Assembly: GCA_016865015.1 (NCBI GenBank)
Contig: CP018226.1
Coordinates: 3,565,001 to 3,629,000 of the forward strand
Reading direction: 5' to 3'
Origin: Rhizobiales bacterium IMCC20636
GTDB lineage: Bacteria; Pseudomonadota; Alphaproteobacteria; Rhizobiales; GCA-2746425
DNA: 64,000 nucleotides
The notes beneath the pieces are model-generated. The model ran no database searches. It saw only the letters and a program-made list of their open reading frames with translations, and had not been told where the DNA came from. A program made the translations under genes and the position numbers. This document shows, piece after piece, positions 48,433 to 61,075 of this stretch. Within the stretch, counting starts at the first letter, position 1, and each line of letters opens with the position of its first letter.

Positions 48433-49872
48433 TTGACCATTCAGGCCGAAACCATCCACGCAGATCTTGGGCCGGACTTCTTTGACGAAGTTTCTGCGGC
48501 GTCATTTCCGGATCATATCTTGCGCTATCGCAATCAGCGAGCAGCTGAAAGTGTGGGGCTGGGAGATTTGTCGGACCAGGACTGGCTTGCGCATTTCGGG
48601 CGGTTTGCGCCCCTGCCCGGCAGTTTTGAAACACCTTTAGCGCTGCGCTATCATGGCCACCAGTTTCGCTCCTACAATCCGGATTTGGGTGATGGCCGTG
48701 GGTTTCTGTTTGCGCAATTGCGCGACATCAATGACGGCCGATTGCTGGATCTGGGCACCAAAGGGTCCGGTCAGACGCCCTGGTCACGCCGGGGCGACGG
48801 ACGGCTGACGCTGAAAGGCGGCGTGCGCGAAATTCTGGCAACTGAAATGCTGGAAGCGCTTGGCGTCAACACATCCAAGACTTTTTCCATTGTGGAGACC
48901 GGCGAGGAACTGGTGCGCGGCGATGAGCCCTCCCCGACGCGCTCAGCCGTCATGGTGCGCCTGTCGCACAGTCACATCAGAATTGGCAGCTTTCAGCGCC
49001 AGTCAGCACTGAAGCGCACAGATAATATTGAAAATCTGATGGATCATACCATCCGGCACTATATGCCCGATGTCTGGCGCGAGGACCGCACAGAGCGCAT
49101 TCTGGCATTTTTGGCCCGGGTCACCGAAAATGTTGCAGCCACCGGTGCTGCCTGGACAGCCGCCGGATTTGTCCATGGTGTCTTGAACACTGACAACATC
49201 AATGTGACCGGCGAGAGTTTTGACTATGGGCCGTGGCGGTTTCTGCCAACTTACGACCCGGCTTTTACCGCAGCTTATTTTGACAGCACCGGGCTCTATT
49301 CTTTTGGCCGACAACCGGAAACGCTGCTCTGGAATCTGGCACGTCTGGCAGAATGTTTTCTGGAACTTGCCGAAGCCGATGTGTTGGAGGATGCTTTGTC
49401 GGGCTATTGGACCCAGTTCCAGTCAGGGCTCTCCGGCCGTTTTTGTGACCGCCTGGGCATTGAGCCGATAGAGGGAAAAGACCCAACCGAAGCCGGTATT
49501 GATTTGCTCAAAGCCCTGATTGAGTTCTGGACCGCGACTCAGGCGCCGTTTGAGCAGGTGCTGTTTGATTTGCGTGGCGGCGCTGAAGCATCCGACCGTC
49601 TCACAGCAAGTCCGATTGCCGAGCTTTACACCCATGAAAGTTTTGCAGCCGTCACGTCTCTTCTGAAGACTTCCTTCCAGATGCGTGGTGATGCCAATCT
49701 TGGCCACCGGTATTTTCAACGCAGCACGCCACGCACCATGCTGATTGAAGATGTCGAATCCATCTGGGATCCCATTGCCAAATCTGATGACTGGTCGCTG
49801 TTCCAGACCTGTCTGGAAGACATCGCAGAGATGCGAGATGCCTATGCAACAGGTGATCGTGCCAAGGCATGA
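48433..49872 (+). CDS. selO: Protein adenylyltransferase SelO (YdiU family)
   Basis: This 479-residue pseudokinase transfers AMP to Ser, Thr or Tyr of target proteins and is linked to the oxidative-stress response in E. coli. Key segments are ALRYHGHQFRSYNPDLGDGR, LDLGTKGSGQTPWSRRGDGR (with the family's ATP-site Lys), GGVREILATEMLEALGVNTS and VHGVLNTDNINVTGESFDYG (catalytic and metal-binding Asn/Asp). The C-terminus ends RDAYATGDRAKA without the selenocysteine/cysteine found in eukaryotic SelO. The start codon is TTG with AAGGA 6 nt before it, and no in-frame ATG lies near, so low translation is likely. Confidence 0.92.
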   Translation: MTIQAETIHADLGPDFFDEVSAASFPDHILRYRNQRAAESVGLGDLSDQDWLAHFGRFAPLPGSFETPLALRYHGHQFRSYNPDLGDGRGFLFAQLRDINDGRLLDLGTKGSGQTPWSRRGDGRLTLKGGVREILATEMLEALGVNTSKTFSIVETGEELVRGDEPSPTRSAVMVRLSHSHIRIGSFQRQSALKRTDNIENLMDHTIRHYMPDVWREDRTERILAFLARVTENVAATGAAWTAAGFVHGVLNTDNINVTGESFDYGPWRFLPTYDPAFTAAYFDSTGLYSFGRQPETLLWNLARLAECFLELAEADVLEDALSGYWTQFQSGLSGRFCDRLGIEPIEGKDPTEAGIDLLKALIEFWTATQAPFEQVLFDLRGGAEASDRLTASPIAELYTHESFAAVTSLLKTSFQMRGDANLGHRYFQRSTPRTMLIEDVESIWDPIAKSDDWSLFQTCLEDIAEMRDAYATGDRAKA

Positions 49873-50921: not shown

Positions 50922-50959
50922 GGCCTCACTGACGAAGCATGACCGGATGGGCGTTCCGG

Positions 50960-53900
50960 TTACCTCCTGGACGTTTGCGGTTCCAGATAGGAGTCGATCT
51001 GCTGCTGCGTAAGCCGTCGGGGCGCTATTCTCTCAGCAAATTGCTTCAGTACTTCTGTGTTTGGAAATATTGGCCAAAAGCCAAGCGTTCCATCCGCAGA
51101 TGCGGCAGCGAGCGCTGTCCCGTCATTCGCAAATTCCGCGGTTACCAGTTGCTTCCCTGCCAATGTAAATCGGGCAATTGTGCCACCCTCGGCAACATCA
51201 AAAATGCTGGTGCCCTGCTCAGTTACAAAGGCAATGCGTTTGCCGTCAGCGCTGAATGAAGCTGCGGATGGGCTGCGCAGGTTCGGACCAACCCGAAATG
51301 TCTGCAAGCTTTCCGGATCGAGCAAGTTGCCGATAACAAAATCGTCTGAACCCTGAACCGGTTCATCTGAAAGACTGAAGAATGAAAGGCTGCCTACCGC
51401 GACAATGGACACCATCTGCTCATCAGGGTGAAGTGCCAGAATTGTCTTTGCACCGTCAAAAGCGTCAAGCTGGGCAACTCGAGCGTTGAACATGTAGGGC
51501 CGGCCCCCTTCGGGCGTGGGCAGTATCTGCATTGAAAGCCAGTTTATGGCAAACAGCCTGTCGCCGGATCGAGAAACGGCGGTGATATTATCGCCCTTGC
51601 CATTGAACTCCATGAGATATCCAACAGAATCCGTTCCGTCGGGCGGCTCCTGCACCCCAACCCAGGCGACCAGTTTGGGGTCACCACTGAGATCATAAAG
51701 TTCGACATGGCTGGGGTTTGAAAAATAAAGTGCAGCACGCGATTGATCCTGTGCGAACGCAACCGCACCTGGAGACTTGATTGTCATGGAGGAAGCAGGA
51801 AAGCGGCGGTTACCTATCTGAAACTCAAAGGACAACAGCGAGCTGTCTGGCTCCAGAATCGCTACCGGGCGCTCTCCAGCGAATCCGGTGGCCAAGACCC
51901 TTGGATAATCCACATCCAGTTCGCGGTCTGCAACCAATTCCTGACCTTCACTGAGGTTCCAAGAACCCAGTAGCCCGCTGGAAGTTGAACGCAAAAAGCG
52001 TTCACCGCTTGGTGAGATGGAGAGCAAGATGGGCGCGCCCTCTAGAAGCAATTCCCCCTCGACCAAATTTGCGGACACCTGTGCGGTGCTGATTTTCGGA
52101 GCATCAGCAATTCGGGATGGTCCGATGCGTTTGGCAGCTATGGCCGTCTCGAGAGACCAGATGCGCACCGTGCCATCCGCAGCAGTCGAGACAATCCGGG
52201 TACTGTCAGGGCTGAACTGCGCGGAAGTGGCCCAATCCTCATGCCCACTCAGTATCAGAGCCTCTCCGCTGCCATCAGACGACCACACACGCACCGTGCC
52301 ATCTTCACCTCCAGATACAATCCGGGTACCGTCAGGGCTGAACTCAGCGGACAAGACTAAACCCTCATGCCCGCTCAGCATCAATGCCTTCCCGCTGCCG
52401 TCAGAAGGCCACACACGCACCATACCATCGTCTCCAGCAGATACGATCTGCGTACCGTCAGGGCTAAACCGTGCGGACATGACCGGACCCGTCGCTTGTT
52501 CGCTCAGTATCGTTGCCCCTCCGATGCCATCAAACACCCGCAACCGCACCGTGCCGTTTGCGTCAGCAGATACAATCTGCGTACGGTCAGGGCTAAACTG
52601 TGCGGAAAGGACCCGCTCCTTTTCGGCGTCCAGCATCAACTCCTCTCCGCTACCATCGGACATCCACACACGCACGGTGCCGTCTAAACCAACAGATACA
52701 ATCCGAGTGCCATCAAGACTAAACTTTGCAGAAAAGACCCGCCCCTCGTGGCCGCTCAGTATCAAAGCCTCTCCGCTGCCATCAGACGGCCACACACGCA
52801 CGGTGCCGTCTTCACCAGCAGACACGATGCGGGTACCGTCAGGACTAAACTGTGCGGACAAGACCCAAGCCTCATGGCCACTCAGTATAAAAGCCTCCCC
52901 GCTGCCATCTGATGGCCACACGCGCACAGTGCCATTTTCACCAGCCAATACAATCCGGGAACCGTCAGGACTAAACTGTGCAGACGAAAACTGGACATTG
53001 TCATCCCTGAACACGATCTGCTCCCTCAGGGCGTAGAGGGCCGAGTAGGTAGCTCGTTCGGCTTCCGGAACATACGGCAGTTCTGTTTGATCCTGCAGCA
53101 CTTCCAACGCCATTGCGAGACCGGAAGCGGCATCACCAGATGCAGTGGCCTCACCTGATCTTTGAGCCAGCAATTGAGAACGCAATTGCTTGTTCTCATC
53201 CTGCTCTTCGATGAGTCTGGTCAAGCTCTCTTGAGCTCTTGCGCTGGCAAGAATTGCATCTGCCGTCGCATTTTCCGCTCTCTCGCGCTCTTGTTCTGCG
53301 ATGGCGGTTTGCACCTTTGCTTCATTGAGCGCGAGCTTGAGTTCTTCAGTTTCCGCAAGCGTTGTCAGAATGAAAATTCCCAACCCAATCACACCAATGA
53401 CCAGGAAGCCAAGCAGGCTCTTGGTGAGCTTTTGTCGGCGCAGATTGTCGGCGCTGGCATTCAACAACTCGGCCACGTCCCCAAAGCGTCCGCCATAGCG
53501 CTCTGCCCAGGCTGGACTGCGCCCGACCATCCAGAATTCGCGTTCTGTTGTCACAGCTGGCGACAGAACGGCTGACTTGTCTTCAGCATATCCATCGGCG
53601 GCGACAAGTAATGTCTTCCAGATCAGGCCGTCCTTGAATTCCTCCTGCAACCAACCAATTTTCGGGTCGGCTATCTGTTTCCAGCAGCGGATCAAAGCTT
53701 CATGGCTGATGCTGATCTCATCACTAGGACTCAATGGTGCCGCGCCATAGGGCCGCAAGAATGAAACGCCATCCTCACGAAGGGGAGCCAGCATTTGTGC
53801 CAATCTTTCAGGCTCGATATCGGATTTGTCACTCAGTTCCTGAAGGGTCTGGCGTTGGCGAATGGCGTTTCCATCCGCGTCAATTTCAGTCAATGCACGA

Positions 53901-54898
53901 AACACGGTTTCCATCACCAGGCGGGCATCCTCGTGCTTTGCGACAATGCTGTTCAGAACCTCATCAGCATGGTCCGACAGAAATTGAACCACGCCCTTTG
54001 TCTTGCGATAATCCTCCAGCGACAGAACCCAGTTCAACTCATCTTCAGTACCATTGCTGCCCTGTTTCGACAGCCTGCGTTGCATGACCATCAAGCCATG
54101 CTGGATAAGCGGCAACTGGTCCTGGCTGGATCCTGCATCCGCGATCAGACGTTCCGCCAGATCCATTGCCACCTGTCCACCATAGAGCACGGCCGGCTCC
54201 CGAATAGCTCTTATAAGGGCAGCACGACGCATCGGCGGCAGCAGGTATTGCGTGTCGTTGATGGCCTCGGCCAATTCATTGAAGCGGGCGCAGGCCCCCA
54301 GATATTCTGACCGCATGGTCAGAATGATGTGCAGCCCCTCTGGCTTCTGTCTCTGAATGCCGGTCAGAACATCAATAAACAGCTCTGCCTCGGTTCCAGG
54401 GTGTTCACGCGCGAAGGCGAATATTTCTTCAAACTGATCTACCAATATGCAAAGATGATCATGTTCATTTCGCCGCAATTCCTTTATAAGCGGCCCGGAA
54501 GCATCTGCTCCCAGGTTCAGAATCCGGCGAATATGGGTCACCCGATCCTTGCCGCCGCTCTCGCACAGTTCCGAAAATGCCGCCGCCAGGTTATGCAAAG
54601 GCGCATTGCCTGGCTCCAATGTGGCCGTACGCCAGCTGCCGCCACCTCGGCCAACATCCTGCATCAATCTGGGCAGCACGCCAGCGCGCACCAGTGAGCT
54701 TTTGCCACTGCCGGAATCGCCGTGTACCGACACAAAACGATTGTCGACAAGTTTGCCGACCACATGCTCGATGATGTTTTCACGACCAAAGAAAATCGCC
54801 CATTCATCCTCGCGAAACGGGCGCAGCCCGGGATAAGGAAAATCCGGAAGCGGGACTTCATACTGCGCATCAAAACCCGGGGCGGCCTGCATGCTCAT
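50960..54898 (-). CDS. nSTAND NTPase with transmembrane helix and WD40 repeats
   Basis: This 1312-residue protein is a STAND-class signalling ATPase. The N-terminal nSTAND1 domain begins PYPGLRPFREDEWAIFFGRE. It has Walker A GDSGSGKS (60-67), Walker B LCILVDQFEEIF (D154) and a helical winged region to about 480. One transmembrane helix (about 494-514) and a coiled coil (515-590) follow. Residues about 638-925 hold seven WD40 repeats of 42 residues, nearly identical (SAQFSPDGTRIVSAGEDGTV type). A more diverged beta-propeller-like region fills the rest. The start overlaps the upstream TIR gene by 4 bp. STAND proteins bind a trigger, oligomerise and switch on linked effectors; here the TIR protein is the obvious partner. 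Confidence 0.93.
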   Translation of the reverse strand: MSMQAAPGFDAQYEVPLPDFPYPGLRPFREDEWAIFFGRENIIEHVVGKLVDNRFVSVHGDSGSGKSSLVRAGVLPRLMQDVGRGGGSWRTATLEPGNAPLHNLAAAFSELCESGGKDRVTHIRRILNLGADASGPLIKELRRNEHDHLCILVDQFEEIFAFAREHPGTEAELFIDVLTGIQRQKPEGLHIILTMRSEYLGACARFNELAEAINDTQYLLPPMRRAALIRAIREPAVLYGGQVAMDLAERLIADAGSSQDQLPLIQHGLMVMQRRLSKQGSNGTEDELNWVLSLEDYRKTKGVVQFLSDHADEVLNSIVAKHEDARLVMETVFRALTEIDADGNAIRQRQTLQELSDKSDIEPERLAQMLAPLREDGVSFLRPYGAAPLSPSDEISISHEALIRCWKQIADPKIGWLQEEFKDGLIWKTLLVAADGYAEDKSAVLSPAVTTEREFWMVGRSPAWAERYGGRFGDVAELLNASADNLRRQKLTKSLLGFLVIGVIGLGIFILTTLAETEELKLALNEAKVQTAIAEQERERAENATADAILASARAQESLTRLIEEQDENKQLRSQLLAQRSGEATASGDAASGLAMALEVLQDQTELPYVPEAERATYSALYALREQIVFRDDNVQFSSAQFSPDGSRIVLAGENGTVRVWPSDGSGEAFILSGHEAWVLSAQFSPDGTRIVSAGEDGTVRVWPSDGSGEALILSGHEGRVFSAKFSLDGTRIVSVGLDGTVRVWMSDGSGEELMLDAEKERVLSAQFSPDRTQIVSADANGTVRLRVFDGIGGATILSEQATGPVMSARFSPDGTQIVSAGDDGMVRVWPSDGSGKALMLSGHEGLVLSAEFSPDGTRIVSGGEDGTVRVWSSDGSGEALILSGHEDWATSAQFSPDSTRIVSTAADGTVRIWSLETAIAAKRIGPSRIADAPKISTAQVSANLVEGELLLEGAPILLSISPSGERFLRSTSSGLLGSWNLSEGQELVADRELDVDYPRVLATGFAGERPVAILEPDSSLLSFEFQIGNRRFPASSMTIKSPGAVAFAQDQSRAALYFSNPSHVELYDLSGDPKLVAWVGVQEPPDGTDSVGYLMEFNGKGDNITAVSRSGDRLFAINWLSMQILPTPEGGRPYMFNARVAQLDAFDGAKTILALHPDEQMVSIVAVGSLSFFSLSDEPVQGSDDFVIGNLLDPESLQTFRVGPNLRSPSAASFSADGKRIAFVTEQGTSIFDVAEGGTIARFTLAGKQLVTAEFANDGTALAAASADGTLGFWPIFPNTEVLKQFAERIAPRRLTQQQIDSYLEPQTSRR
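52126..52987 (-). repeat. Seven 126-bp tandem repeats coding for WD40 blades
   Basis: Seven in-frame units of about 126 bp encode the blades of the nSTAND protein. Most share long identical stretches such as GACGGCACGGTGCGTGTGTG-type codons for DGTVRVW. The similarity at DNA level implies recent amplification or gene conversion. Units 3, 4 and 7 are the most diverged. Boundaries are approximate. Confidence 0.85.
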
Positions 54899-55983
54899 AG
54901 GCCTGCCCCCTGCAGCCAGGGTGGAATAGCTGAGGTCCAGGACTCATCCTGCGCCTTGAACCAATGCACGCCGAGACGGCGCGCATTGGTCAGGATGCGT
55001 TGCCGCGTTTCGGCAAGGCCGGCCTTGTCAACCACGGCGCAGGGCATCAATTTATCTGAAAATGCCCGTGCCTGATGCCGCTCATTGCGACCGACGACCA
55101 CAAGATCTGCATCCAGCATGCGGGTGTCATCCGTACCGACCAGTAGCAGCGCATCACACCCTTTTAGGATTTCGATGCGCCCTTTGCTGATTTTCTGGGT
55201 GTCCGCCAGATCCGTGGTGATCGGGTCAGGCTCGCTTGGATAGACCTGAAAGCCTGCCGACTCCAGATCGGACCAGACATCCTCCCAGACCTCGGAATTT
55301 TCCTGACTGCCATGCAGGTAAATAGCCTGCCCACCATCTGCTGCCAGCCGCAGAGCCTCTGTCTTCTGGCGCTGTTTTTCCTCGACGAGCGTGCGAAGGT
55401 CTTTCAGATGCACCATCAGATTGCCGATATAATCAACCAGCGTTCCGCGAAATGGGTCACCTGAGGTTGGTTTGGGTTGCGGCCATTCAAACGGCCGTGC
55501 ATTGACCTTGGCGCGATCGTAAAAACACTGCCCGACCAGCCTGTGACCACGACTGTCGACCAGCACTTCCGGCCAGTCGCTGTCCTGTGTTGGCAGAATA
55601 TGGGCCACAGCAAGTCGCCCATTCACCTGCAACTCATTTTGTTTTTGAGCGTCCAGCCACCAGTTCCGTTCATCGGCACACCAGCCGGATTTCAGATAGT
55701 GTGGTGTCATCAGGATCGCCAGTATGGCTGAACCAGCGATGTCTGCTTTCAATTGTTCTGTCAGCGGCGCCATGGGATCGAGTGCCTGCTCAGGACGCGC
55801 ATGCTGATCACGAAAGACCTTTATTCCGGAAAGCTGGTCCTGCATCAATTGCAGTTCCTGTTCCAGCTCACGGGCGAAGCCTTCCGACCATTGCTTCAAC
55901 AACGAATGACCATCACCATCCGCATCCCCATGGCTGTAGGTGATGAAGACATCATGCTCGAATGGTTCGCCGACGAAAGACAT
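54895..55983 (-). CDS. TIR-domain protein with second TIR-like domain
   Basis: This 362-residue protein begins with a TIR domain (residues 7-150). HDVFITYSHGDADGDG is strand A, and SAILAILMTPHYLKSGWCAD precedes the putative catalytic Glu105 in WCADERNWW. TIR domains of this kind cleave NAD+. Residues about 215-360 form a second domain with AIYLHGSQENSEVWEDVWSD and ILKGCDALLLVGTDDTRM, resembling a diverged TIR or flavodoxin-like fold. The ATG at 55983 starts just before the TIR domain; the longer frame adds 20 residues without support. The stop overlaps the nSTAND start by 4 bp, so both proteins are made together. It is probably the NAD-depleting or signal-making effector. Confidence 0.9.
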   Translation of the reverse strand: MSFVGEPFEHDVFITYSHGDADGDGHSLLKQWSEGFARELEQELQLMQDQLSGIKVFRDQHARPEQALDPMAPLTEQLKADIAGSAILAILMTPHYLKSGWCADERNWWLDAQKQNELQVNGRLAVAHILPTQDSDWPEVLVDSRGHRLVGQCFYDRAKVNARPFEWPQPKPTSGDPFRGTLVDYIGNLMVHLKDLRTLVEEKQRQKTEALRLAADGGQAIYLHGSQENSEVWEDVWSDLESAGFQVYPSEPDPITTDLADTQKISKGRIEILKGCDALLLVGTDDTRMLDADLVVVGRNERHQARAFSDKLMPCAVVDKAGLAETRQRILTNARRLGVHWFKAQDESWTSAIPPWLQGAGL

Positions 55984-56067
55984 GCACTCACTTTCAAAAA
56001 AACCGGCTTCAGATAAGAATGCGACCTGTAGTATGTATCCCATCGGTTGTATTGGGAAGGGCCAGGA

Positions 56068-58047
56068 CTAGTTACGCGACAGGATGCGCTTTCTGAAAAG
56101 TTTCAGGCGCGACAGGAATGGCGGTCGAACCCCACGATTTGCAGGCGTACTGGCACCTCCAGGCCCACTGGCCGCCTCCGTAGCGACGCGGGGCATATCG
56201 TTTGGCCAACGATAGGACAGCAGTCGGGATTTCGGGTAGTTGGATTCCTTGACCTGATTGGACTGGTTGCCACCCAGAACCTTGATGTGTGTGGCGGTTT
56301 CACTGACATAGAACGCTACATGACCAGATTGCTGCCCTGCGGATGGGCGGGAAAACACGGTGATACAACCGGGAACCGGATCGCTCAGCTTGCGGCCCCA
56401 ACCCTCCCAGGACCGCGCCCGCGCGGAATTGGTGCCCTTCAACCCGACCCGGCTGATGCACCAGTTGACGAAGGAGGAACACCAGGCGGTTTCATCAATT
56501 CTGGCCAGATTTCCGGGCAGAGTGGTTGAGGCATGGTATTCCAAAATGCGGGGATTGTTGCGTATCGAACCGGACTGTTCGCTCGTGCCCAGTTCACGTT
56601 TTGCCATGTCGAACCAGGGTGTATCGCCACTCGCATCCATTGCCGGCTCGACAGGATCGGGTATGTCTGATCCCACCAGCAGGATTGAATCTCCGGGGAA
56701 AATCCTGTTTGGATTGGTGATCTGGGGGTTCCATGCGCGGATCTGATCTGTCGTCAGGCCAACCTTACTGGCAATATTCTGCAGAGTGTCGCCGGGTTGA
56801 ACGAAGTAAATGGTTTCCTCGCCAGCTTCACCTTCGCCGACACTGGTGGCGCTGTCCTCACCCTCCAAAGGTTCAATCACCGGTTCTGCTGCCGGTGCTT
56901 TTGGCTTTCCTTTTGGCCAGCGATAGCCCAGCAAATCATCCTTGCCGTAATAGGATTCCTTGACCTGGTTCGATTGGTTGCCGCCCAGAACACGTATGCG
57001 CTCAGCTGTTTCCTTGACGAAAAAGGCGACATGACCCGAATTCGGTCCGGCGCTGGGACGGGCGAACACGACAATGCAGCCCTCTTGCGGCGTATCCAGC
57101 TTGTTGCCCCATTTGAGCCAGGATCGGGCCATGGCAGAATCGGTGCCTTTCAATCCGCTGCCTTCAACGCACCAGTTTACGAAGGAAGAACACCAGGGCG
57201 TTTCGTCGGTGCTGGCGAGTTTTTTGCTGAGTGTGGTTGAGCGATGGTAATCCAGAATGCGGGAATTGTTGTGCAGCTTGCCCTTCACTTCCGAAATTCC
57301 CAGTTCCCCTTTCGCCTTGCCATACCAGGGCGCGTCGATCATCGCGACCTCTGGCGTATCGGCATCCATTGGGCGCGCGGTTTCTTCATCAACCGGCACA
57401 GCACCTACAAAGCGGATCATATCGCCAGGATAGAGCAGATTGTGGTCAGCAATATGCGGGTTCATATGCAGCAAAGCCTCAATGCTAAGGCCATTTTTTG
57501 CAGCGATTCCACTGAAGGAATCTCCCGGCCGAACAATATAGAAATACGCCTCTAGAACTTCACTGCTGACAGGCTGGGCAGCTGCGATGGTAGCGCCAGC
57601 TCCATCTGCGCTATCAAATAAACTGCGCTCAGCCTTGCGGCGACGAACGAGCCCCGGCAATGTGACCTTCTTGCCATTGATGGTCCCCTTTACCCATCGC
57701 AGGAATTCCTTCGATGCGCCCTTGGCGTCTCCCGCATTGAGCTTGTTCAGCAGGGTCGAACTTCCGAAATTTCCAAGCCCGGTGTTAAAGGCAAAAGAGA
57801 CCAGAGCAGCAAAGGCATTGTTGCTGACAGTGACCGCAATCCTGTTTCGCACGCCAGTTGCAAATTTCTCCAGATCGGTTCGCAATATCTGGTCTGCTTC
57901 AGCCTCGGAAATGGTTTCACCCACTTTGACTTCAGGGCCGGTATGGCCGTAACCGATGGTCGGAATGCCAACGGGATCAATATATCCGGTCAGCCGCAAG
58001 CCCTCGAAATGCTTGATAAGCTCGATACCCTTCTGGTTGATTGGCAC
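56068..58047 (-). CDS. Modular cell-wall hydrolase: GH24 lysozyme, 2 LysM, 2 NlpC/P60-like domains
   Basis: This 659-residue protein starts with a T4-type GH24 lysozyme (1-145) with the complete E-x8-D-x5-T active site (E15, D24, T30). LysM (169-214) follows, then a TIGR02594-type cysteine peptidase/amidase domain (239-377; Cys286 in ETPWCSSFVNW, His339 in SGHVAFFV). A second LysM (413-458) and a second peptidase domain (476-614; Cys523, His576) complete it, with a basic tail. No signal peptide is seen. The start is GTG at 58047 with GGGAGG 7 nt upstream; a TTG at 58134 is much weaker. It lies 44 bp after the protease gene in the same operon. It may cut both glycan and peptide bonds of peptidoglycan. 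Confidence 0.88.
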   Translation of the reverse strand: MPINQKGIELIKHFEGLRLTGYIDPVGIPTIGYGHTGPEVKVGETISEAEADQILRTDLEKFATGVRNRIAVTVSNNAFAALVSFAFNTGLGNFGSSTLLNKLNAGDAKGASKEFLRWVKGTINGKKVTLPGLVRRRKAERSLFDSADGAGATIAAAQPVSSEVLEAYFYIVRPGDSFSGIAAKNGLSIEALLHMNPHIADHNLLYPGDMIRFVGAVPVDEETARPMDADTPEVAMIDAPWYGKAKGELGISEVKGKLHNNSRILDYHRSTTLSKKLASTDETPWCSSFVNWCVEGSGLKGTDSAMARSWLKWGNKLDTPQEGCIVVFARPSAGPNSGHVAFFVKETAERIRVLGGNQSNQVKESYYGKDDLLGYRWPKGKPKAPAAEPVIEPLEGEDSATSVGEGEAGEETIYFVQPGDTLQNIASKVGLTTDQIRAWNPQITNPNRIFPGDSILLVGSDIPDPVEPAMDASGDTPWFDMAKRELGTSEQSGSIRNNPRILEYHASTTLPGNLARIDETAWCSSFVNWCISRVGLKGTNSARARSWEGWGRKLSDPVPGCITVFSRPSAGQQSGHVAFYVSETATHIKVLGGNQSNQVKESNYPKSRLLSYRWPNDMPRVATEAASGPGGASTPANRGVRPPFLSRLKLFRKRILSRN

Positions 58048-58091
58048 GCTCTTTCCTCCCTGTTTCAGCCCTTGACTGGCTTGAAGATGGC

Positions 58092-59723
58092 CTATGTCCT
58101 GTGAGGCTTTGCTCTCCTGATCGACTGAATCCAAATGCCCTCATTGGCCGGATAAGTACCGGGATGACCATTCAATCTGTTCATTTTCTTGGAACCGGCA
58201 TGATGCAGGGCGATGGCCAACCAATTGCCGTTGAAGACCGGACTGCCGGAACTGCCGGGTTCAGTCGGCGTGTGGTAATGAATTCGCAGCGGGCTTGAAT
58301 CTTCCTCATTTTCCATCAAGCCGCTTTCATAATCGAGCAGCTTGTTGTCCTGAAACGAGAAGCTGATTTCGCCGCCACCGGGATGCCCGATGATATAGAC
58401 CCTTTGAGGTCGGTCCGGCTTCAGAATTGGCAGGTTTGGGCTGAATTTCAGGGGACGCAATTTTCCGCGAAGATCTGTATCCAGTCTCAAAAGGGCTGCA
58501 TCGTGCTGGTTCGGTGGCGATTGCCAGACCACTTCAGTGACCGAGTAGGTCTCGCCCTTTACAGCCTCGGCAACCTCGAAACTGACCAGAACTTCAGAAT
58601 AATTGGCCGCATTGCCAATGGGTGGTTCGCTGACCACATGGGCATTGGTCAAGACAAACAATTCATCGCCCAGATCGGGATTGAGGTCACTACCCCTGAC
58701 CAGAAAACCGGTGCCAACGCCGCGGCCATTCTGCCGAATTAACGCGACCGACTGCGCCGTTCGAAAGCCGTTCTGCATGAAAGTGTATGTCATCGGTCCG
58801 GTGTCACCGAGAACCTTTTCGTAGCTTGCCTCGGGGACGGATGCCATCTTGTACAATTCTTCGGAATTGAGGGAAAACTCGCCGCCCGGCTTTTCGAGCA
58901 GCTGCGCGCGCATGGGGGCGAGCAATTCGCGCCCTCCATCGGTATCATCCAACTTCCACAAGTCAGTCAGTTGACGCACCGTCCCGCCCAGGGAAAAGGC
59001 ATCTGCCTTGTGCGCATATTTGCCGAACCAGTCAGTGGCTTCCTCATCGCGGCCAAGTGCTATCAGCGCTTCTCCTGCAATCGCCAGATCCCATGTGTCA
59101 CTCTTGCCCTCGGTTTGTTTCTTTTTGACCCGGTCGAGAATATCTGCAGCTGATTTCAGGGCAAATTTTCGCTCCTTGGTCTGCAAGGTCAGCCCTCGGT
59201 CCCAGCAGGCCAGAGCCACAGTGTTGATGCCCTGATAAAGCGCATCCGGATCATCGGCATAGACATCCATATAACTTTGATAGGCCTTGCGCAGTGCTGT
59301 CGCCGCGACCTTGTCGCGGGTGCCGCGCGCTGCCACAGCGCGCTCCTTCCACGCACGACCAAGAATGCCGCGCGCATCATCGAGTTCCGCCTTTGAGCCT
59401 TCTTTGGTGGAGAGCAGATCTTCAAGAACGCGAATGGCCGGCAATGTCTGACCGTTTTCGATCAGTGCCTGGGCATATTGCCGGTTCACTTTTGTGTCGT
59501 CACAGCCATCGATCATGAAGGCATCAGCCATCCGCCCCAACTGGTCGAACCGTCGGCTGCTGCGCAGAGCGTCCAGTGCCTCATGGGCGAGCGTTGCGGC
59601 AATTGTCTCCGGCTCCCTTCTCATCTGACCTTCAACGTCCTGACAGGCACCTTCCAGAATGTCAGCGTCGTCCTGCGCAGCGGCGTCTTTCAGTTTGCCG
59701 ACGAGTTTTTTCAATTTCGACAT
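58092..59723 (-). CDS. Helical-repeat (TRAFs-binding-like) trypsin-like serine protease
   Basis: This 543-residue protein has two parts. Residues 1-300 are helical hairpins resembling TPRs of the MAP3K TRAFs-binding type (NRQYAQALIENGQTLPAIRV, ARGILGRAWKERAV). Residues about 315-535 are a trypsin-fold protease with catalytic His362 (LTNAHVVS), Asp408 (QHDAALLRLD) and Ser492 (PGSSGSPVFN). GHPGGGEISFS forms the oxyanion side. There is no signal peptide, so it should act in the cytoplasm. The ATG at 59723 is preferred. It overlaps the hydrolase stop region (59737) only marginally, with a 13-bp gap. It may activate or degrade partners when the nSTAND sensor fires; that is inference from context. 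Confidence 0.88.
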   Translation of the reverse strand: MSKLKKLVGKLKDAAAQDDADILEGACQDVEGQMRREPETIAATLAHEALDALRSSRRFDQLGRMADAFMIDGCDDTKVNRQYAQALIENGQTLPAIRVLEDLLSTKEGSKAELDDARGILGRAWKERAVAARGTRDKVAATALRKAYQSYMDVYADDPDALYQGINTVALACWDRGLTLQTKERKFALKSAADILDRVKKKQTEGKSDTWDLAIAGEALIALGRDEEATDWFGKYAHKADAFSLGGTVRQLTDLWKLDDTDGGRELLAPMRAQLLEKPGGEFSLNSEELYKMASVPEASYEKVLGDTGPMTYTFMQNGFRTAQSVALIRQNGRGVGTGFLVRGSDLNPDLGDELFVLTNAHVVSEPPIGNAANYSEVLVSFEVAEAVKGETYSVTEVVWQSPPNQHDAALLRLDTDLRGKLRPLKFSPNLPILKPDRPQRVYIIGHPGGGEISFSFQDNKLLDYESGLMENEEDSSPLRIHYHTPTEPGSSGSPVFNGNWLAIALHHAGSKKMNRLNGHPGTYPANEGIWIQSIRRAKPHRT

Positions 59724-59736
59724 GATGTGTCTCCAA

Positions 59737-60696
59737 TCAGATTCCAAGCATGGATTTCAAACGGGAACTGACCACCTGGCCGCGGAAATACTTGTCCAGA
59801 CTGTGGGTCCACCAGCCATCGTGGTTCTGTCGCTGATCCTCGACCACTGTTGCGCCATTCTTGCGATAATCACTGGCCAGATGCGGGTCGAGCCGTGACA
59901 CCACATCCATTGGGTCGAAGACATTGAGCCATTCCCCGGCAACCTTGCTGGATGGAAAACCATCCTTGCGCGACCATTCAGGTTTCAGCTTGGCCTGAAC
60001 TTCATCAATGCCAAGCGGGCTTCCAAGCGTTATCAATGCGTCGATCCCTGAACAATCAGCGACACGTTTCAGGCAGTCATAAGCGATGATTGTTCCCATC
60101 GAATGGGAGACAACAATGTGAGGACCGCTCTTTGCAGCGCCGCGATTAACCGCTGCAACGAACCGTTTGCGAATTTCATCCTGGACCAAAAATGTCTCGC
60201 CTGGCCGGGGTGTAAATTCGCTGTTGAAAAGATAATGGTGTACATCGCGCAGAAACCGCTTCAGGAACTCGTCTTTGACAAAGCCCGGCAATGGTATCCA
60301 TTCCAGATCACTTGCCACAGTCCCCGCACTGGCCCCGTCTCCCTCCAGTCTGGTCTCGTCGTCTTCAAGTGCTTCTCCCGTTTTTGAATCGACCCCCATA
60401 CGATCAGACATGGATTCAATCCACGCTCTTTCCAGTGGATCGCCTGCCTCGGGAATGTCGACTTTCTCGGTATCATGAGCGCCCATTTCCAGGTTTTCTG
60501 AGGCCGACTCCAGCTCCCCTTCGCGCATCGGTTCCGCATAGAGAACATCCGCCCAATAGACCATTTCACTTGTCACCCCTTCTGCATCCAGATCCAGCGG
60601 CGATGCAGCTCTCAACAAAGCTCCCCGCCAGATCCGATGCAGTTCCTCAGCCGCAGGCTTGTTGGAAATCCCATGAATAAATGTCAGATGTGCCAT
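59737..60696 (-). CDS. Alpha/beta hydrolase (lipase/PGAP1-like)
   Basis: This 319-residue protein has an alpha/beta-hydrolase fold. LTFIHGISNKP supplies the oxyanion HG motif, and the nucleophile Ser199 lies in IVVSHSMGTIIAYDCL (a GxSxG variant with Ser in the first position). Asp in WLNVFDPMDVVSRL and His in GWWTHSLDKYF probably complete the triad. Residues 55-130 form an acidic insert (EALEDDETRLEGDGASAG). No signal peptide is present. The gene overlaps the truncated TIR gene by 50 bp in another frame and has GGGAG before its ATG. Related hydrolases act on phospholipids or esters; the substrate here is unknown. Confidence 0.86.
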   Translation of the reverse strand: MAHLTFIHGISNKPAAEELHRIWRGALLRAASPLDLDAEGVTSEMVYWADVLYAEPMREGELESASENLEMGAHDTEKVDIPEAGDPLERAWIESMSDRMGVDSKTGEALEDDETRLEGDGASAGTVASDLEWIPLPGFVKDEFLKRFLRDVHHYLFNSEFTPRPGETFLVQDEIRKRFVAAVNRGAAKSGPHIVVSHSMGTIIAYDCLKRVADCSGIDALITLGSPLGIDEVQAKLKPEWSRKDGFPSSKVAGEWLNVFDPMDVVSRLDPHLASDYRKNGATVVEDQRQNHDGWWTHSLDKYFRGQVVSSRLKSMLGI

Positions 60697-60952
60697 GCTG
60701 TTCTCCCGTGGGTTTTAGGTGTGAACTTGTGGTGCTTTTTTGCACGAAGCGGCTCATGCGTTCGCCGAGCAAAAGGAGGAAGGCGTCAGCCGCATCAGGG
60801 GCTGTGCCAAGTTGAGGAACAAAGAATTTGCCCGCGCACAGGCTTTGGGGCGCAAAGGAGACCTTTGCGTCGCTCTTGCCGGCTTCCAGTGCCTGCTTCA
60901 ACACCCGCGCCGAAGCCTCGTCTGGCGAATGGTAGGATAGAAATATCCTCAC
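60647..60952 (-). CDS. Truncated TIR-domain protein (first gene of the conflict operon)
   Basis: The 101-residue product starts VRIFLSYHSPDEASARVLKQ, a typical TIR strand A and helix A, then VSFAPQSLCAGKFFVPQLG and DAFLLLLGERMSRF (strand C). It stops there, before the helix that carries the catalytic glutamate in full TIR domains, and about 30 unrelated residues follow. The start is GTG at 60952 with GGGGGAG 5 nt upstream. The 3' end overlaps the hydrolase gene by 50 bp. It is either a remnant of a longer TIR gene left by a deletion that fused it to the hydrolase unit, or a short non-enzymatic TIR adaptor. The abrupt end at strand C favours a remnant. Confidence 0.7.
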   Translation of the reverse strand: MRIFLSYHSPDEASARVLKQALEAGKSDAKVSFAPQSLCAGKFFVPQLGTAPDAADAFLLLLGERMSRFVQKSTTSSHLKPTGEQHGTSDIYSWDFQQACG

Positions 60953-60998
60953 AACCGCTCCCCCTTGCGCAGGCCTTTGGTTAGCCTGCACCCAGTGG

Positions 60999-61027
60999 AT
61001 TAAAACCCAAAATTGCAAATTGAGCAA
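60999..61027 (-). promoter_or_regulatory. Possible promoter of the TIR-nSTAND operon
   Basis: On the minus strand TTGCTC (61027-61022) and TTTAAT (61004-60999) are 17 nt apart. The start would fall just upstream of a leader hairpin (GCAGGC/GCCTGC, 60969-60989) that precedes the first ribosome site. Identified by eye only. Confidence 0.35.
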
Positions 61028-61075
61028 GATTATCGGATTTCGAGTCTTTGGTGACGTCTTTGTTTAGCGTCAGAT

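Follow-up and report, generated by a model that had tools for sequence, protein, structure and literature searches.

A signal-less GH24-LysM-CHAP peptidoglycan hydrolase as a putative self-lysis effector of a STAND/TIR/protease cassette in Rhizobiales bacterium IMCC20636

The window analysed, a stretch of 64,000 nucleotides of the genome of Rhizobiales bacterium IMCC20636, carries a cassette of five co-directional genes which encode, in this order, an alpha/beta-hydrolase, a TPR-S-trypsin protein, a lysozyme, a TIR-domain protein and an nSTAND1 NTPase equipped with a transmembrane (TM) helix and WD40 repeats (Table 1). The genes are separated by gaps of 10, 44 and 84 bp, the STAND gene overlaps the TIR gene by 4 bp, and the intergenic spaces contain no terminator-like site on the minus strand. 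A preliminary description of this DNA had placed the hydrolase next to the lysozyme, the third gene; the hydrolase is indeed a member of the cassette, but the TPR-S-trypsin gene intervenes, and the trypsin, TIR and nSTAND1-WD40 genes had gone unmentioned. A STAND protein with C-terminal repeats, a TIR protein and a protease are thereby combined in one operon, as generally found in NTP-dependent conflict systems.

Table 1. Features of the lysozyme cassette (window coordinates)
Feature	Position	Strand	Remarks
Accessory insertion	50922..61075	minus	between DMT transporter and LysR genes
nSTAND1 NTPase-one TM helix-seven 42-residue WD40 repeats	50960..54898	minus	1312 aa
TM helix of STAND protein, LLGFLVIGVIGLGIFILTT	53360..53416	minus	residues 495-513
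TIR-domain protein	54895..55983	minus	362 aa
GH24-(LysM-TIGR02594/CHAP)x2 peptidoglycan hydrolase (lysozyme)	56068..58047	minus	659 aa, putative lytic effector
Basic C-terminal tail of lysozyme, VRPPFLSRLKLFRKRILSRN	56071..56130	minus	last 20 residues, charge +7
TIGR02594 (CHAP/NlpC-P60 type) peptidase 2	56206..56619	minus	residues 477-614, C523/H576
LysM 2	56680..56808	minus	residues 414-456
TIGR02594 (CHAP/NlpC-P60 type) peptidase 1	56917..57330	minus	residues 240-377, C286/H339
LysM 1	57409..57546	minus	about residues 168-213
GH24 (phage lysozyme) domain	57610..58041	minus	residues 3-146, E15/D24/T30
TPR-S (putative sensor)-trypsin-like protease	58092..59723	minus	Pfam TPR-S, Trypsin_2
Alpha/beta-hydrolase	59737..60696	minus	S199, D261 or D264, H298
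Truncated TIR-like ORF	60647..61027	minus	126 aa, overlaps hydrolase start

The reading frame of the lysozyme is complete, and its coordinates and frame were confirmed. Translation starts at a GTG at position 58047, preceded on the 5′ side by a GGAGG ribosome-binding site, and the 82% identical ortholog of a congeneric genome (locus L031) carries an ATG at the corresponding codon. The N-terminal part belongs to the Pfam family Phage_lysozyme (GH24, 6.1e-46) and matches endolysins of the PDB at 1e-31; its Glu-8-Asp-5-Thr catalytic spacing corroborates the complete triad described before. Two stretches each match LysM (7.6e-25), CHAP (1.1e-16) and the NCBIfam model TIGR02594 (2.7e-74; 247.7 bits at a curated cut-off of 70.55), and NLPC_P60 is marginal. 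Thus the two LysM domains of the preliminary description hold, as do the two peptidase domains with intact Cys and His, but the label NlpC/P60-like for the latter is better replaced by TIGR02594 of the CHAP/NlpC-P60 superfamily. The duplication of the LysM-peptidase unit is equally evident, with 122 of 217 positions (56%) being identical between the two units and 92 of 138 between the peptidase domains by themselves. The C-terminal tail is unchanged in L031, the linker just before it being 52% identical. A docking or membrane-binding role of the tail is possible; a strongly amphipathic segment was considered and rejected, its moment being unremarkable (rank 126 of 646). The exact architecture of the lysozyme was found in two genomes only, with one full-length ortholog. 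Elsewhere in the order its relatives are partial-length matches, around which no cassette was present at the loci inspected. Several of these partial relatives adjoin a gene of about 1300 codons that has the appearance of a putative phage/GTA tail gene.

The catalytic residues of the protease and the hydrolase are strictly preserved. The triad H363/D409/S493 of the TPR-S-trypsin, counted from the Ile codon preceding the ATG (ATG-based numbers are lower by one), is invariant in 10 relatives, and the potential triad of the hydrolase in 11. The protease is closest to the V8/Spl proteases. For the TIR gene, comparison with L031 led to a corrected start at MSFVGEPF. The C-terminal part of its product (window 55000-55320) resembles a second TIR/SLOG-like domain that is not named by Pfam. 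The STAND protein, with an nSTAND1 match of 5.8e-78, contains a single TM helix between the NTPase and the WD40 array. Basic residues flank this helix on the NTPase side, which suggests that the NTPase is cytoplasmic and the propeller extracytoplasmic. The seven WD40 repeats (window 52164-52981) correspond to a 126-bp tandem repeat with 6.5 copies. The C-terminal half of the STAND protein diverges fastest within the cassette, at 59-64% identity versus 86% for the NTPase, as would befit a sensor. Upstream of the hydrolase, the truncated TIR-like ORF has a counterpart in L031 (6807-7420) which is broken by frameshifts; this ORF is probably decaying, and the cassette seems to be losing one TIR gene.

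The cassette of ca. 10 kb constitutes a clean insertion, which a genome has either entirely or not at all. In two congeners without it, the flanking DMT transporter and LysR genes are immediate neighbours with spacers of 14 bp (G040) and 34 bp (G145); in another congener (G080, containing L031) they enclose the full set of genes in the same order, at 71-93% identity across the cassette. Neither a tRNA gene nor a GC anomaly was found at the cassette. Beside its flank lies a SelO-like gene (window 48433-49872), in place of which the sister genome has a short SelO fragment and a glyoxalase-like gene. Comparison with L031 indicated purifying selection on all five cassette genes (dN/dS of 0.06-0.15). 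For the lysozyme the ratio is 0.10 overall, 0.03-0.07 in the GH24 and peptidase domains and 0.25-0.40 in the linkers.

Hydropathy analysis of the lysozyme revealed neither a signal peptide nor a membrane helix, with a 19-residue maximum of 1.34; the first 40 residues, which reach 0.48 at most, do not form a hydrophobic N-terminus, in line with what had been claimed earlier. Phage endolysins are commonly devoid of a signal peptide, so that its absence is to be expected of a domesticated endolysin and poses no puzzle. Within the cassette no SAR anchor, signal or holin route for the lysozyme was found, and neither a holin nor a spanin was recognised near it, which counts against a lysis model with respect to the access to the wall. 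Non-Sec export had been put forward as an alternative. Its contractile variants appear unlikely, and export of the lysozyme by a T6SS or related contractile system was rejected, because T6SS and phage-type sheaths (PF05943 and PF04984) are absent from the complete genome. The HK97-type capsid family PF05065 is also absent from the genome, the Caulobacter control being positive, and no second match to the lysozyme exists in its own genome at E ≤ 0.001. Both findings argue against a lysis gene, or its remnant, of a prophage or gene transfer agent (GTA), and the lack of a second match renders a chance placement of the lysozyme in the cassette improbable.

A related cassette is present on a Sinorhizobium K101 plasmid in the order GH108 muramidase, hydrolase, TPR-S-trypsin and TIR-nSTAND1-TM. 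Its hydrolase shares 49% and its protease 42% identity with the counterpart in the window. The muramidase (206 aa) likewise has no signal, and in content the cassette resembles that of the window, with a different muramidase family. The genome G418 has a TPR-S-trypsin gene with an overlapping GH108 gene, and a patatin-like gene near the pair. Beside the hydrolase-trypsin pair the effector position is thus occupied by a GH24-CHAP enzyme, by a GH108 enzyme or by no wall hydrolase. Most hydrolase-protease pairs are of the last kind, and the wall hydrolase is consequently an optional part. A tree of the proteases sets the GH24 clade (100/100) apart from that of Sinorhizobium, to which G641, without any wall hydrolase, is sister (99/99). 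From these separate positions, with the deep nodes of the tree being weak, we conclude that wall hydrolases were probably recruited at least twice into such cassettes. The GH108 proteins of G418 and Sinorhizobium share 38% identity, and related companion genes accompany both; they may therefore reflect one ancestral recruitment rather than two.

Considering the gene content of the cassette, we favour with moderate confidence the lysozyme as the cell-wall-lytic executioner of an abortive-infection-like STAND/TIR/protease conflict cassette and hence as a putative self-lysis effector. The preliminary description had envisaged a lysis effector in the cytoplasm that depends on membrane damage for its access. 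The cytoplasmic lysis effector is the best-supported proposal, owing to the STAND/TIR/protease genes and to the related cassette with a signal-less GH108 enzyme in the same role; that the lysozyme kills its own cell, how it gains access to the wall and in which order the parts are activated is what we infer from the sequences. In this scenario the lysozyme, a domesticated enzyme of the endolysin type, would rest latent in the cytoplasm, where no substrate is available. Sensing of invasion or damage would be the task of the nSTAND1-WD40 protein, anchored in the membrane, and of the TIR protein, and their signal would be passed to the TPR-S-trypsin. The active protease, together with the alpha/beta-hydrolase, would then break the inner membrane and/or process the effector. 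A breach of the membrane would give the lysozyme access to the wall, upon which the GH24 domain and the two CHAP-type domains would cut glycan strands and peptide cross-links. The infected cell would thus lyse before the invader has finished, and the infection be aborted. Cleavage of the lysozyme or its partner by the trypsin is a tentative element of this scheme, to which we give less than an even chance; a Glu-specific cleavage, suggested by the V8/Spl-like character of the protease and the acidic linkers of the lysozyme, is only an idea.

Within the self-lysis proposal, the hydrolase is the only candidate in the cassette for the step at the membrane. Acting as a substitute for a holin, it would be a lipase which is activated by the trypsin and perforates the inner membrane for the lysozyme. 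Profile comparisons relate it weakly to lipases, group XV phospholipase A2, LCAT and PGAP1, it is the only candidate killer in stand-alone protease-hydrolase pairs, and the patatin-like gene near the GH108-trypsin pair of G418 points in the same direction. However, every one of the lipase matches is marginal, the sequence does not point to any particular lipid substrate, and the family is found with proteases without any wall hydrolase. Pairs of hydrolase and TPR-S-trypsin occur on Rhizobiaceae plasmids and in two other Pseudomonadota genomes. On Agrobacterium plasmids such a pair lies between ParB-type and DEAD/DEAH helicase genes, and genes of matching annotation enclose a caspase-hydrolase pair on another Agrobacterium plasmid. 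These plasmid loci (L077, L078 and L081) have the appearance of a defence hotspot with interchangeable protease modules. Elsewhere, members of the hydrolase family are accompanied by a caspase, CHAT, subtilisin or caspase-like STAND-WD40 protein; no partner protease was recognised at three loci (L057, L184 and L186). One relative (L056, 5792-8497) is apparently fused to a subtilisin-like (S8) protease. As it accompanies proteases with or without a wall hydrolase, the family, judged by these neighbourhoods, follows the protease and is not a dedicated helper of the lysozyme. The earlier claim that the pairing of a lipase-like hydrolase with the lysozyme serves to open the membrane is accordingly unsupported in that form. 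Membrane damage by the hydrolase is possible, and as the membrane-damaging step of the cassette, or a holin substitute, we regard it as doubtful. Still less likely is the complete scheme in which a protease-switched lipase would act as holin and the cytoplasmic lysozyme with its duplicated LysM-CHAP unit as endolysin, such that an NLR-like cassette would turn the lysis chemistry of phages on the phage.

Outside the self-lysis proposal, the lysozyme might be a constitutive enzyme of wall remodelling or division whose place in the operon is fortuitous and whose way into the periplasm has gone unrecognised. Many cell-wall remodelling enzymes contain LysM and CHAP-type units, and the SpmX model matches the GH24 part. 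Nevertheless, this reading is improbable in view of the lacking signal or membrane segment, the co-location with TIR, STAND and protease genes, and the absence of lysozyme and cassette alike from two congeners in which the flanking genes are kept; moreover, it is mainly as parts of phage baseplates that TIGR02594 units are known. To the same low degree we credit a module for the release of particles or toxins, or an antibacterial enzyme that would reach neighbouring cells after self-lysis or by an unknown exporter. Such a role would agree with LypABC, an NLR-trypsin cassette co-opted for particle release, and with the presence of GH24 domains in GTA endolysins as well (the BgtA model match stays below its cut-off), but the complete genome lacks the capsid and sheath components mentioned above, and no candidate for an immunity protein was recognised beside the lysozyme gene. 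Least probable is a passenger role, in which a defence island would have captured, by accident, an endolysin of phage origin that has no function in the cassette. In its favour, both catalytic modules have phage relatives and most related cassettes contain no wall hydrolase; against it, all domains of the lysozyme are under purifying selection with an unchanged tail, its gene is internal to the operon in two genomes, and the GH108 case is parallel.

Effectors of the lysozyme-like and papain-like peptidoglycan peptidase type were already proposed for alphaproteobacterial trypsin/NucA systems (Kaur et al. 2020, PMC7159879). The cassette of the window shares with their System 3 (NucA/trypsin, EAD1) the mostly alphaproteobacterial distribution, the trypsin core and, in some operons, a STAND NTPase, and a Sinorhizobium meliloti locus (L080) joins its hydrolase family to a NucA/CHAT/S8/trypsin operon. 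In contrast, it has no NucA endonuclease and no recognised EAD1, nor did Pfam or NCBIfam reveal any nuclease domain among its proteins; its trypsin bears TPR-S instead of a TM segment or EAD1, and TIR and nSTAND1-WD40 proteins are added. Lacking NucA, the cassette stands outside System 3, and would work similarly. New are the fusion of both wall-cutting activities in one protein, the duplicated peptidase unit and its embedding with TIR, nSTAND1-WD40 and hydrolase genes, the effector type as such having been proposed (PMC7159879). A STAND/NLR-like NTPase and a trypsin-like protease also characterise the CARD-NLR systems and LypABC of Caulobacter, an NLR-trypsin lysis hub serving GTA release which contains no wall hydrolase and whose lytic effector was not identified (PMC13236601). 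The window cassette differs by its additional TIR protein and hydrolase, and a CARD or Death-like domain was undetected by Pfam. In Hachiman and AVAST, a trypsin-like protease is likewise encoded with a toxic hydrolase; there the protease was shown to gate a pro-nuclease, and such pairs were acquired by STAND systems (PMC12799240), whereas here the partner is a peptidoglycan hydrolase and the gating putative. By analogy, these protease-gated nucleases (PMC12799240) and LypABC (PMC13236601) may be considered the closest tested precedents for the proposed trypsin activation step. The caspase-alpha/beta-hydrolase pairs of MoxR-vWA systems (Kaur et al. 2020) also couple an alpha/beta-hydrolase, which may be of the same family, to a protease, and on plasmids a caspase with a relative of the cassette hydrolase is found at a site that corresponds to the site of the trypsin-hydrolase pair; the window differs by its TPR-S-trypsin and by the added wall hydrolase and TIR/STAND proteins. 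With the lysis by phage holins and endolysins the cassette has in common a GH24/CHAP wall hydrolase without signal and thus of predicted cytoplasmic location, but no holin, spanin or HK97-type capsid is recognised and the surrounding genes are of the immune type. No Thoeris model (ThsA and the TIR protein ThsB) scored above its cut-off in the cassette, and PADLOC returned weak trypsin-domain matches only (LmuA, 1.7e-6).

Known effectors of bacterial STAND/NLR systems attack DNA, NAD or membranes. A tested wall-hydrolase effector of a STAND or TIR defence system was not found in the literature covered, which included few subscription papers. With its signal-less wall hydrolase and the matching cassette that carries an unrelated muramidase, the locus offers a concrete candidate for such an executioner. 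A wall-lytic executioner of this kind would represent the missing step of LypABC and other NLR-trypsin lysis hubs.
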